Assembly: GCF_021462285.1 (NCBI RefSeq)
Contig: NZ_CP082787.1
Span: forward strand, 1,922,001 to 1,986,000
DNA length: 64,000 nucleotides
From: Serratia entomophila
Lineage (GTDB): Bacteria > Pseudomonadota > Gammaproteobacteria > Enterobacterales > Enterobacteriaceae
Reading direction: 5' to 3'
Shown here one piece after another: positions 1 through 62,493 of this stretch; the first letter of the stretch is position 1; each line of letters starts with the position of its first letter. A program made the position numbers and the translations under genes. The notes beneath the pieces were generated by a model. The model had not been told where the DNA came from. It saw only the letters and a program-made list of their open reading frames with translations, and made no database searches.

Positions 1-70
1 TGCCGAGGATCTTCAGCAGCGTGGCGTTTTCTGGCACGGCTTCCGGCGCCGCGGTGTCTTTGTCGGTCAT
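1..70 (-). CDS. Hypothetical protein, N-terminal fragment cut by window edge
   Basis: A reading frame starts at the ATG at 70 (minus strand) and leaves the window after 23 codons. It is preceded by a good ribosome binding site (GAGAGGA) about 6 nt upstream. The visible residues are polar and Ala/Pro-rich and then turn hydrophobic (TLLKILG). That would fit a short cytoplasmic tail before a first membrane segment, but this is inference. I do not recognise the family from 23 residues. The gene has an unusually long upstream region with hairpins, described separately. Confidence 0.55.
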   Translation of the reverse strand, partial: MTDKDTAAPEAVPENATLLKILG

Positions 71-60743: not shown

Positions 60744-61103
60744 ATGAACACTACGGGTTTTATTACTGATTTGATCGAGTGGATTGACAACAATCTGGAA
60801 GAGAAGCTGGATATCAACAGGGTGGCGGACCGCGCAGGCTACTCCAAATGGCACCTGCAGCGCATGTTCAAACGCCAGACCGGCTATGCGTTAGGGGAGT
60901 ACATCCGCATGCAGAAGCTGAAGGTATCTGCTGAGCGGTTGGCCAACAGCGGCGAGCCGATTGTCAGCGTGGCGATCTCGCTGGGTTTCGATTCGCAACA
61001 GTCGTTTAACCGCAGCTTCAAACGCCAGTTCGGCCAAACGCCGGGCGACTGGCGCCGCGCATTGGCGCGGCCGCAGGCGGTAATGGGGCGAACCCATCAC
61101 TGA
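60744..61103 (+). CDS. rarA: AraC-family activator, RarA/SdeR-like (MarA/SoxS group)
   Basis: This 119-aa protein consists of the DNA-binding domain only, like MarA, SoxS and RamA: first helix-turn-helix INRVADRAGYSKWHLQRMFKRQTG, second IVSVAISLGFDSQQSFNRSFKRQFGQTPGDWR. Proteins of this group activate efflux pumps and lower porin levels. It is divergent from the oqxAB-like operon, as rarA is in Klebsiella; in S. marcescens a MarA-like sdeR is reported beside sdeAB. ATG 60744 follows GGGAG. Confidence 0.88.
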   Translation: MNTTGFITDLIEWIDNNLEEKLDINRVADRAGYSKWHLQRMFKRQTGYALGEYIRMQKLKVSAERLANSGEPIVSVAISLGFDSQQSFNRSFKRQFGQTPGDWRRALARPQAVMGRTHH

Positions 61104-61121
61104 GCGGTGGATTGCGGACAA

Positions 61122-61160
61122 CAAAAAAGCCTGAACTTTCGCTCAGGCTTTCTCTTTAAA
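61122..61160. terminator. Bidirectional terminator between rarA and the tRNA repeat array
   Basis: AAAAAGCCTGA / TCAGGCTTT with a loop ACTTTCGC is followed by T-rich sequence on both strands. It is the last copy of the terminator hairpin that recurs in each 169-bp unit. Confidence 0.85.
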
Positions 61161-61163
61161 ATA

Positions 61164-61670
61164 TGGCGGTGAGGGAGGGCTTGATTCGCTGCGCTCACCC
61201 TGCGGGCCGCCTTTGGCGGTCCAAAACGCAATGCGTTTTGTCGAACCCTGTCGAGGCTTCTCACCCCTCCCGGTCGGTGCGCTATGCAAACGAAAAAGCC
61301 TGAACTTTCGCTCAGGCTTTCTCTTTAGAATATGGCGGTGAGGGAGGGCTTGATTCGCTGCGCTCACCCTGCGGGCCGCCTTTGGCGGTCCAAAACGCAA
61401 TGCGTTTTGTCGAACCCTGTCGAGGCTTCTCACCCCTCCCGGTCGGTGCGCTATGCAAACGAAAAAGCCTGAACTTTCGCTCAGGCTTTCTCTTTAAAAT
61501 ATGGCGGTGAGGGAGGGCTTGATTCGCTGCGCTCACCCTGCGGGCCGCCTTTGGCGGTCCAAAACGCAATGCGTTTTGTCGAACCCTGTCGAGGCTTCTC
61601 ACCCCTCCCGGTCAGTGCATTATGCAAATGAAAAAGCCTGAACTTTCGCTCAGGCTTTCTCTTTAGAATA
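61164..61670 (-). repeat. Array A: three tandem 169-bp tRNA-Ser distal repeats
   Basis: Units lie at 61164-61332, 61333-61501 and 61502-61670, downstream of tRNA-Ser at 61671-61760. They are almost identical; the unit next to the tRNA differs at a few bases around 61612-61629. Read on the minus strand, each unit has the terminator hairpin (GCCTGA/TCAGGC, then T run), an arm GGGAGGG, hairpins CAAAACGC/GCGTTTTG and CCGCC/GGCGG, the complementary arm CCCTCCC and the tRNA 3' end CTCACCGCCA. The arrangement resembles the tRNA-Tyr distal repeats of E. coli tyrT that give rtT RNA. A processed structured RNA is inference. Confidence 0.9.
61625..61670 (-). terminator. Terminator hairpin directly after tRNA-Ser copy 1
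   Basis: On the minus strand an AAAGCCTGA / TCAGGCTTT stem is followed by five T residues, about 25 nt after the tRNA 3' end. Copies of it occur in each unit at 169-bp intervals, so reading into the array needs antitermination or incomplete termination. Confidence 0.8.
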
Positions 61671-61760
61671 TGGCGGTGAGGGAGGGGTTCGAACCCTCGA
61701 TACACTTTCGCGTATACACACTTTCCAGGCGTGCTCCTTCAGCCACTCAGACACCTCACC
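61671..61760 (-). tRNA. tRNA-Ser(GGA), copy 1
   Basis: This 90-nt gene includes an encoded CCA. On the minus strand the acceptor is GGTGAGG pairing with CCTCACC, discriminator G, D-arm CTGAGTGGCTGAAGG, anticodon arm CGCCTGGAAAGTG with GGA, a long variable arm (class II) and T-arm GAGGG-TTCGAAC-CCCTC. It matches E. coli tRNA-Ser(GGA) closely. It has its own promoter and is followed by array A. Confidence 0.96.
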
Positions 61761-61800
61761 GTATTTTTCCGTTGCGAACTCATCGCTGCAACGGGGCGCT

Positions 61801-61829
61801 ACTATAGGGAGTGAGGGCGATCCGGTCAA
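61801..61829 (-). promoter_or_regulatory. Promoter of tRNA-Ser copy 1
   Basis: On the minus strand TTGACC and TATAGT are spaced by 17 bp and followed by the GC-rich discriminator AGCGCCCC, the pattern of stringently controlled stable-RNA promoters. It lies about 40 bp upstream of the mature tRNA 5' end. Confidence 0.85.
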
Positions 61830-61952
61830 GCATAATTTCTGCGTTTCGCTGCGTCCGCTCAAGCCGTGTTCAGATTGTAGAAAACTGCGGCGTACCGCGC
61901 GGTGGCGGCAGAAGAAAGCGATAAAAAACCGGGGGTTCCGCGTGCCGCAAAC

Positions 61953-61994
61953 GACAAAAAAAAGCCTGGACGTGAATCCAGGCTTTCTCTTTAG
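61953..61994 (-). terminator. Terminator at the distal end of array B
   Basis: On the minus strand AAAGCCTGGA / TCCAGGCTTT is followed by eight T residues. It is the array-B version of the recurrent hairpin, with a different stem sequence from array A. Confidence 0.85.
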
Positions 61995-61998
61995 AATA

Positions 61999-62334
61999 TG
62001 GCGGTGAGAGAGGGCTTGATTCGCTGCGCTCACCCTGCGGGCCGCCGTTGGCGGTCCAAAACGCAGTGCGTTTTGTCGAACCCTGTCGAGGCTTCTCACC
62101 CCTCTCTTTCGGAGCGTCATGCAAAAAAAAAGCCTGGACGCGGATCCAGGCTTTCTCTTTAGAATATGGCGGTGAGAGAGGGCTTGATTCGCTGCGCTCA
62201 CCCTGCGGGCCGCCGTTGGCGGTCCAAAACGCAGTGCGTTTTGTCGAACCCTGTCGAGGCTTCTCACCCCTCTCTTTCGGAGCGTCATGCAAAAAAAAAG
62301 CCTGGACGCGAATCCAGGCTTTCTCTTTAGAATA
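61999..62334 (-). repeat. Array B: two tandem 168-bp tRNA-Ser distal repeats
   Basis: Units lie at 61999-62166 and 62167-62334, downstream of tRNA-Ser copy 2. They share the core of array A (same two internal hairpins, differing only in loop bases), but the closing arms are GAGAGGG and CCCTCTC instead of GGGAGGG and CCCTCCC, and the terminator stem is GCCTGGA/TCCAGGC. Each unit again ends with CTCACCGCCA from the tRNA 3' end. The two units are nearly identical to each other. Confidence 0.9.
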
Positions 62335-62424
62335 TGGCGGTGAGAGAGGGGTTCGAACCCTCGATACACTTTCGCGTATACACACTTTCCAGGCGTGCTC
62401 CTTCAGCCACTCAGACACCTCACC
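62335..62424 (-). tRNA. tRNA-Ser(GGA), copy 2
   Basis: This 90-nt gene is identical to copy 1 except at one base: the innermost acceptor position is T instead of C on the 3' side, giving a G-U in place of a G-C pair at 7-66. Anticodon GGA, class II variable arm, encoded CCA. It has its own promoter upstream and array B downstream. Confidence 0.96.
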
Positions 62425-62464: not shown

Positions 62465-62493
62465 AATGTAGGAGAATCTGATCCCAGCGTCAA
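62465..62493 (-). promoter_or_regulatory. Promoter of tRNA-Ser copy 2
   Basis: On the minus strand TTGACG and TACATT are spaced by 17 bp and followed by AGCGCCCG, a GC-rich discriminator as at copy 1. It lies about 40 bp upstream of the tRNA 5' end. Confidence 0.85.

Follow-up and report, generated by a model that had tools for sequence, protein, structure and literature searches.

Tandem repeat units behind stable RNA genes, the tRNA-linked repeats (TLRs), have been reported at ten loci of E. coli with a total of 22 units (PMC8144298). According to the authors of that paper, TLRs have been known since 1978, and no function had been assigned to any of them until the authors obtained data on three. 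In passages of the same paper, about 18-19 bp at the 3' end of a TLR unit equal the 3' end of the upstream tRNA or rRNA. A further criterion is that the unit lies immediately downstream of its host tRNA, with one to five units per locus. The processed RNAs of the three copies studied there, RrA, RrB and RrF, are reported to bind Hfq and CsrA (PMC8144298), and in the passages surveyed the published function of TLRs is limited to these three 5S-linked copies. Passages of other papers describe a tandem GA motif in the RtT family (PMC7657543) and rtT-like elements upstream of several genes, which were assigned to BIMEs (PMC2965389), and a role of RtT in the stringent response is still cited in PMC4986893. 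The annotation of the E. coli K-12 record places rttR behind tyrV.

The window, the whole 64,000-nucleotide stretch of Serratia entomophila contig NZ_CP082787.1 that was analysed, carried, on its minus strand, two neighbouring tRNA-Ser(GGA) genes with an array of repeats behind each. The features were as follows.

62465..62493, minus strand, promoter-like site upstream of tRNA-Ser B (9/12 consensus bases, consensus match only)
62335..62424, minus strand, tRNA-Ser(GGA) B, host of array B, with U66 (ARAGORN; Rfam tRNA 45 bits)
62167..62288, minus strand, TLR unit B1 (RF00391 51.6 bits)
61999..62120, minus strand, TLR unit B2 (RF00391 51.6 bits)
61801..61829, minus strand, promoter-like site upstream of tRNA-Ser A (10/12 consensus bases, consensus match only)
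61671..61760, minus strand, tRNA-Ser(GGA) A, host of array A, with C66 (ARAGORN; Rfam tRNA 48.4 bits)
61624..61670, minus strand, trailer with a terminator-like hairpin that separates tRNA A from unit A1 and recurs after each A unit (fold -22.8 kcal/mol, z -6.9)
61502..61623, minus strand, TLR unit A1, RtT (RF00391 55.2 bits)
61603..61609, minus strand, antisense arm of unit A1, GGGAGGG, pairing with 61511-61517 (sequence; covariation)
61560..61578, no strand, palindrome CAAAACGCATTGCGTTTTG, hairpin 1 of the body of unit A1 (equivalents in other units)
61545..61557, no strand, palindrome CCGCCTTTGGCGG, hairpin 2 of the body of unit A1 (read from the sequence)
61502..61517, minus strand, 3' end of unit A1, a direct copy of the end of its tRNA, CCCTCCCTCACCGCCA (16 nt identical to tRNA A)
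61333..61454, minus strand, TLR unit A2 (RF00391 53.1 bits)
61164..61285, minus strand, TLR unit A3 (RF00391 53.1 bits)

The direct-repeat copies started at 61120, 61289 and 61458 in array A (spacing 169, three units) and at 61955 and 62123 in array B (spacing 168, two units). Tandem Repeats Finder scored the arrays 1085 and 776, and the other three rows of the window 51-52. The ARAGORN calls and the repeat spacing agreed with the sequence-only reading, which had described five units of 168-169 bp (three and two) behind two tRNA-Ser(GGA) genes of the minus strand. Its statement that each unit closes with a copy of the tRNA 3' end was confirmed by a 16-nt exact identity with the unit's own upstream tRNA. 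Of the last 19 nt, 18 agreed; at position 60 the unit had G where the tRNA had C, so that the strict identical run was 16 nt. The A units ended with CCCTCCCTCACCGCCA and the B units with CCCTCTCTCACCGCCA, and the single base separating tRNAs A and B (position 66, C vs U) recurred in the copies of each array. The arm was GAGAGGG in the B units where the A units had GGGAGGG. The internal hairpins and the terminator hairpin of the same reading were found as the palindromes CAAAACGCATTGCGTTTTG and CCGCCTTTGGCGG and as a terminator-like hairpin (z -6.9, one folded).

By sequence, a terminator-like hairpin followed each tRNA and each unit, and the trailer of the units was nearly the same as that of the tRNA. 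A simple terminator scan of the region reported no terminator, probably because the U-run was counted within the stem. Two units folded singly had ordinary stability when compared with shuffles (z -1.2 and -0.3); the structural evidence for the units is covariation rather than folding energy. As to coding sequence, many short overlapping frames ran through the arrays. At 60744-61103 on the plus strand, a small frame resembling an AraC-family regulator by eye was seen; its end was some 20 bp away from the terminator-like hairpin that comes last in array A, with which it was convergent.

Comparison with Rfam showed that all five units matched RtT (RF00391) with 51.6-55.2 bits, at a curated cut-off of 45, and the units are therefore TLRs. 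The arrays had the RtT score, the 3' copy, the position (3 and 2 units) and the arm/copy stem of TLRs, and among the 181 units that shared at least 14 nt with a tRNA, the strict 3' match was 18-19 nt in 173. It is very likely that the window arrays are TLRs (RtT) of tRNA-Ser(GGA), with the anatomy given here, and that they are the same type of element as the repeats of E. coli serX. The serX gene, also a tRNA-Ser(GGA) gene, was followed in E. coli K-12 by three units (46.4-56.2 bits with the model R1), unannotated in the feature table of the record; the Ser arrays are the counterpart of these units. The T-stem of serX differed from that of the window, and its arm differed to match. The gene next to serX in E. 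coli, ghrA, was near the matching array in one S. marcescens and one Klebsiella record. The likeness to E. coli tyrT that had been seen from the letters was thus right and closer than claimed, since the units fell in the same Rfam family. The claim of an undescribed RNA system did not hold: all five units were Rfam RtT, TLRs are already published, and E. coli serX has three such units. It is plausible that the arrays would give rise to RNAs of about 105 nt with a CCA end.

The window arrays and the E. coli TLRs (serX, tyrT/rttR) have in common the tandem units behind a tRNA, the copy of its 3' end and the RtT fold. They differ in that the window arrays have another T-stem and acceptor sequence, to which the arm corresponds, occur as two arrays at two neighbouring Ser genes, and have other terminator and hairpin letters. 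With RF00391, the Ser units of the window (51.6-55.2 bits) stayed below the best Tyr unit of their own genome (108.4 bits). RrA, RrB and RrF share with the arrays a unit that lies between two terminators, copies the 3' end of the upstream RNA and is a read-through product (passages of PMC8144298); they differ in having 5S rRNA as host and no inverted copy by eye, and CsrA motifs were not evident in the Ser units. In the S. entomophila genome, a hairpin body of the same order as the RrA/B/F units was seen behind 5S rRNA. In this 5S-linked region (L232 and L234), two hairpin bodies followed one another in the same order by eye; the second was flanked by GTAGGAC on one side and by a copied 5S 3' end on the other, which places it within a duplicated 5S tail. 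Arrc20 and Arrc21 of Actinobacillus pleuropneumoniae are likewise RtT-family RNAs at non-Tyr tRNA genes, and differ in belonging to Pasteurellaceae, in their Asn and Lys tRNAs, and in being described in a passage of the source as upstream of those genes (PMC4986893).

In a full-length unit, an inverted host T-arm and acceptor 3' strand (GGATGAGAACC core) was followed by GGTTCGA, the direct 5' half of the T-stem, and by a body with a few small hairpins; after the body came a direct copy of about positions 59-76 (CCA), with the trailer and the terminator behind it. In RNA, the inverted arm would clamp the direct copy in stems P1 and P2, and the body would be an insertion at the T-loop. Near-literal inverted copies were found at a Ser locus (L212, 20/20 nt) and at a Gln locus (L209, 22/23 nt, starting within CCA). 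In L209 the inverted copy came directly after the terminator hairpin, and the tRNA-Gln end, the terminator hairpin and the inverted tRNA end formed one long palindrome; this layout suggests that a unit may originate by inverted duplication around a terminator hairpin. A short form with model hits of about 76-78 nt, which had no GGTTCGA/hairpin 1 module, was present in L001 (1197-1274), L067, L091, L115 and L150; the module is therefore optional.

The relation of the arm to the host tRNA was analysed with the 181 units, out of 1829 rows, sharing at least 14 nt with a tRNA; the other 1648 rows, which had no suffix in common with the tRNA, were a script artefact and were set aside. Filters reduced the 181 units to 176 and then to 172; 163 of these had the arm motif and 9 had none. 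This gave 137 unique arm/host pairs, and 135 unique arm/copy rows for a test by position. In the latter test, in which each unit, but not its shuffles, was set in the register with most pairing (a bias towards an arm that follows), the observed (expected) P1 Watson-Crick pairs were 117 (92.5) at position 63, 108 (40.9) at 64, 118 (68.7) at 65, 83 (45.7) at 66, 101 (63.3) at 67 and 62 (35.0) at 68, with 0/2000 shuffles as high at each. Position 60 was slightly above chance (117 vs 114.1, 0/2000), and positions 61 and 62 hardly varied. Small excesses were obtained at position 69 (42 vs 33.0, 76/2000) and position 71 (29 vs 26.8, 30/2000), and positions 70 and 72 had no pairing excess in the 135 rows. 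Kinship among the sequences inflates this and all other shuffle tests given here.

A structure-blind MAFFT alignment of 61 units (from 62 selected, L029 omitted), to which this register bias does not apply, gave a six-helix structure with 85.6% paired cells. It held 179 double-change cells vs 60.2 in shuffles (0/500), and the best slid register gave 83. Judged from these alignments, the inverted arm pairs with the direct copy and has compensatory changes in P1.

Host positions 49-51, which lie outside the unit's 3' copy, were matched by the inverted form at 0.75 vs 0.48 shuffled and by the direct form at 0.70 vs 0.44 shuffled (148 rows, 0/2000), and this held after collapse to 61 rows. The match was strong for Pro, Tyr and Ser and weak for Gln and Lys (about 0.4-0.55). 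When the register rule was also applied to the shuffles, the 137 pairs pooled gave 771 matches vs 645 by chance (0/2000). Within isotypes, arm tracking was present for Tyr and Lys (0/2000) and absent for Ser (1242/2000 shuffles as high) and Pro (1862/2000), and in only 42 of the 137 pairs did no other host match the arm better than the own one. Because the copy equals the host tRNA, an arm that follows the copy and an arm that follows the tRNA fit the data alike.

Diverged copies had 36 mismatches at positions 69-76 vs 16 at positions 60-68 (binomial p 0.002, non-independent), counted in 127 rows after duplicate removal, from 150 less 6 skipped, with a finder model that favours paired units. 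Because divergence is stronger at the CCA-proximal end of the copy than within its paired part, the fold rather than the mature CCA end may be the conserved thing. Divergence of internal and last units did not differ (8/56 vs 13/71).

In the genus Serratia, all 30 genomes (own included) matched the locus, some of them at the tRNA alone. The unit was not absent from other strains of the genus, since 18 of the 30 genomes (own included) had at least one unit at the locus. Among the 54 tRNA-Ser(GGA) genes of the 30 loci, 50 were fully visible; 27 of these had no unit, 12 had one, 6 had two, 4 had three and 1 had four, so that at least one unit lay behind 23 of the 50. In 41 units, the arm base opposite host position 66 was A in 15/15 units of U66 hosts and G in 25/26 units of C66 hosts, an agreement that may stem from one or a few events by common descent.

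The core was also found beside other tRNA genes, where the sequence-only reading had suggested looking for it. The S. entomophila genome had 16 RtT matches, all above the cut-off, at seven tRNA loci: 2 units behind Arg, 4 and 1 behind Lys, 5 behind Ser, 2 and 1 behind Tyr, and 1 behind Pro. One unit behind tRNA-Tyr (L010) was degenerate, its tRNA-end copy having decayed to CCCAAA.

At E 0.001 or better, 21/40 genomes of the family matched. In the order, 6/40 genomes matched, the window's own included, and in the class 64/229, with a strict filter by which weak matches were lost. Among 29 fetched loci of the class, 24 repeated 14 nt or more of an upstream tRNA exactly (Gln 12, Ser 8, Tyr 4). 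Several distant units of the class (within L199-L223) had GGA in seeming hairpin loops by eye, as in CsrA-binding RNAs. In the phylum of a Kiritimatiellae assembly, 9/115 genomes matched, that assembly included, again with a strict filter that loses weak matches. In 7 of ten newly fetched loci of the same phylum (6 genomes, two loci overlapping), tRNA-Ser, Pro or Arg was followed by an exact copy. At least three assemblies titled Kiritimatiellae or Verrucomicrobia had a unit behind tRNA-Ser, and another (L108) had no tRNA in the locus. TLRs thus appear to reach a second phylum in tRNA-linked form, which looks new, with phyla taken from the record titles of metagenome assemblies in which contamination is possible. 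In the passages, titles and abstract openings surveyed, which do not extend to the older original papers, neither this reach nor the host-matched inverted arm was described, and both look new.

The model R1 was built from 61 units and run on 100 of 230 loci, and the best 150 of its 216 hits were aligned. Of these best 150 hits, 149 had a tRNA upstream on the same strand at a distance of 0-886 nt, and 125 of the 149 matched the last 17 nt of that tRNA exactly. In a tree built from 67 columns of 115 bodies, with many of its forks unresolved, host isotype changed 11 times (least possible 4, shuffled about 60) and genus 59 times (least possible 44, shuffled mean 90), so that both labels were clustered. 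The nearest body was that of the same host in another genus, not that of the same genus behind another host, in 48 of 49 testable rows. By this measure the TLR element mostly stays with its tRNA, and the host clustering of the bodies speaks against the idea that it moves actively from one tRNA type to another in the same genome.

Carriage by phages was also considered and rejected: the enteric RtT core pattern occurred in 1 stretch of the viral collection, near the contig end, and among the phage records 7 had some match to the Ser array query and none covered 80% of it. Among plasmids, 104 of 72,556 records matched the Ser array and 9 covered at least 80%. Four of the ten listed plasmid matches were 4.8-5.4 Mb, the size of chromosomes. 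The best match (NZ_CP042515.1, 1-12416) was a linear 67-kb non-mobilizable 'plasmid' of S. marcescens, with the Ser array by a peptide transporter gene and ghrA. By gene content, this record and one 275-kb Klebsiella plasmid record (ghrA near the match) look like chromosome pieces. The other records may carry plasmid copies.

At the level of sequence, the anatomy, the tRNA linkage, the compensatory changes in P1 and the patchy presence are established. We consider it probable that the arrays are tRNA-linked RtT repeats which give a self-folding read-through RNA and are dispensable. The units would be transcribed when RNA polymerase passes the first terminator, cut free by the tRNA 3'-maturation enzymes, and would then build up as small structured RNAs, a behaviour that has been reported in E. 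coli for RttR and RrB. The likeliest effect of such dispensable units would be that of an accessory or decoy small RNA, with an RNA-binding protein or a processing enzyme as the target of the decoy; on our analysis this functional part is tentative, at somewhat less than an even chance. The reading has to face the terminator-like hairpins, which by sequence separate the tRNA from the units, and the patchy presence, with 27/50 Ser genes without a unit and 6/40 genomes of the order matching. It has also to face Ser and Pro, which lack within-isotype tracking, the own host as best match in only 42/137, the weak matching at 49-51 for Gln and Lys, and the ordinary folding energy of the units.

A rival explanation is a neutral or selfish by-product, that is, a tandem duplication of the tRNA 3' end and terminator that trapped a hairpin-rich body, with no selection at the RNA level, and with copies kept alike by unequal crossing-over and gene conversion. 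The patchy presence with 0-4 copies per Ser gene, the degenerate unit behind tRNA-Tyr in S. entomophila and the homogeneity of the arrays within a locus fit this origin, as does a 122-bp rtT RNA difference between Salmonella serovars, listed as a variable tandem repeat in a passage of PMC2658671. However, the inverted arm is no part of a tandem duplication and yet has compensatory changes at positions 63-68, and the copy mismatches avoid the paired part (16 at 60-68 vs 36 at 69-76, with a finder model that favours pairing). We regard the by-product as rather unlikely. A sponge RNA for CsrA or Hfq, a role that has been put forward for the 5S-linked E. coli RNAs RrA/B/F, is improbable. Binding was reported for RrA/B/F, and GGA stands in seeming hairpin loops of several distant units by eye, but a sequence-based predictor gave scores <0.01 for the other 19 E. 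coli TLRs (both in passages of PMC8144298), and in the Ser units of the window GGA was read only between hairpins, with none in hairpin loops. There is a slim chance of a role at the DNA level, in which spare tRNA 3' ends serve as decoy integrase attachment sites or as back-up terminators. Each unit does supply a tRNA 3' end and a terminator-like hairpin; the compensatory arm is left unexplained by such a role, and the core pattern was seen in 1 stretch of the viral collection, near the contig end.

Two further explanations concern the host tRNA itself. The arm and the copy could cancel out and so keep the extra 3' end from misfolding the host tRNA, which would agree with the existence and persistence of their complementarity. 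In the predicted pre-RNA of 73 units, however, the native acceptor/T-stem pairing was 0.067 for the wild type and 0.931 for the tRNA alone; scrambling gave 0.155 (arm), 0.143 (copy) and 0.359 (both). The arm and the copy thus harm native tRNA pairing instead of protecting it; the protective role is rejected at equilibrium, and we give it hardly any weight. The arm of the read-through RNA could instead capture the T-arm and acceptor of the real tRNA across the terminator, so that no tRNA would be made (feedback or quality control). In the predicted folds, a unit joined to its own tRNA gained 8.7 kcal/mol over separate folds vs 2.9 with other isotypes, the joint-fold energy was lower for the own host in 61/66, and the joint fold of tRNA A and unit A1 opened the tRNA. 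The near-perfect antisense copies of L209 (22/23 nt) and L212 (20/20) point the same way. A lead is the putative sRNA antisense to E. coli tRNA-Tyr near tpr (PMC11623569); the inverted arms of RttR might supply such an antisense. ViennaRNA ignores the tertiary structure and modification of tRNA and the co-transcriptional order, in which the tRNA is made first. Most rows of the 61-unit alignment keep TGAGAA, not the perfect antisense TTCGAA, and pairing with the real T-loop would therefore be weaker. The conformation is possible on paper, as modelled, and its use as a switch is quite improbable. The same low probability applies to the wider claim that TLRs are widespread host-specific anti-tRNA elements, in Gammaproteobacteria and in Verrucomicrobiota/Kiritimatiellota assemblies, that couple read-through to tRNA loss or surveillance, with the sense copy resetting the arm. 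If this were true, the antisense arm in a read-through RNA would open the T-arm and acceptor stem of its own tRNA.

For the tRNA-linked, self-folding repeats that we consider probable, the window is a clean natural case, as its neighbouring tRNAs are one base apart near the 3' end and the arm of each array differs accordingly. The inverted and direct copies of the tRNA tail provide a concrete structure to break and repair, which would make the old question about TLRs testable.
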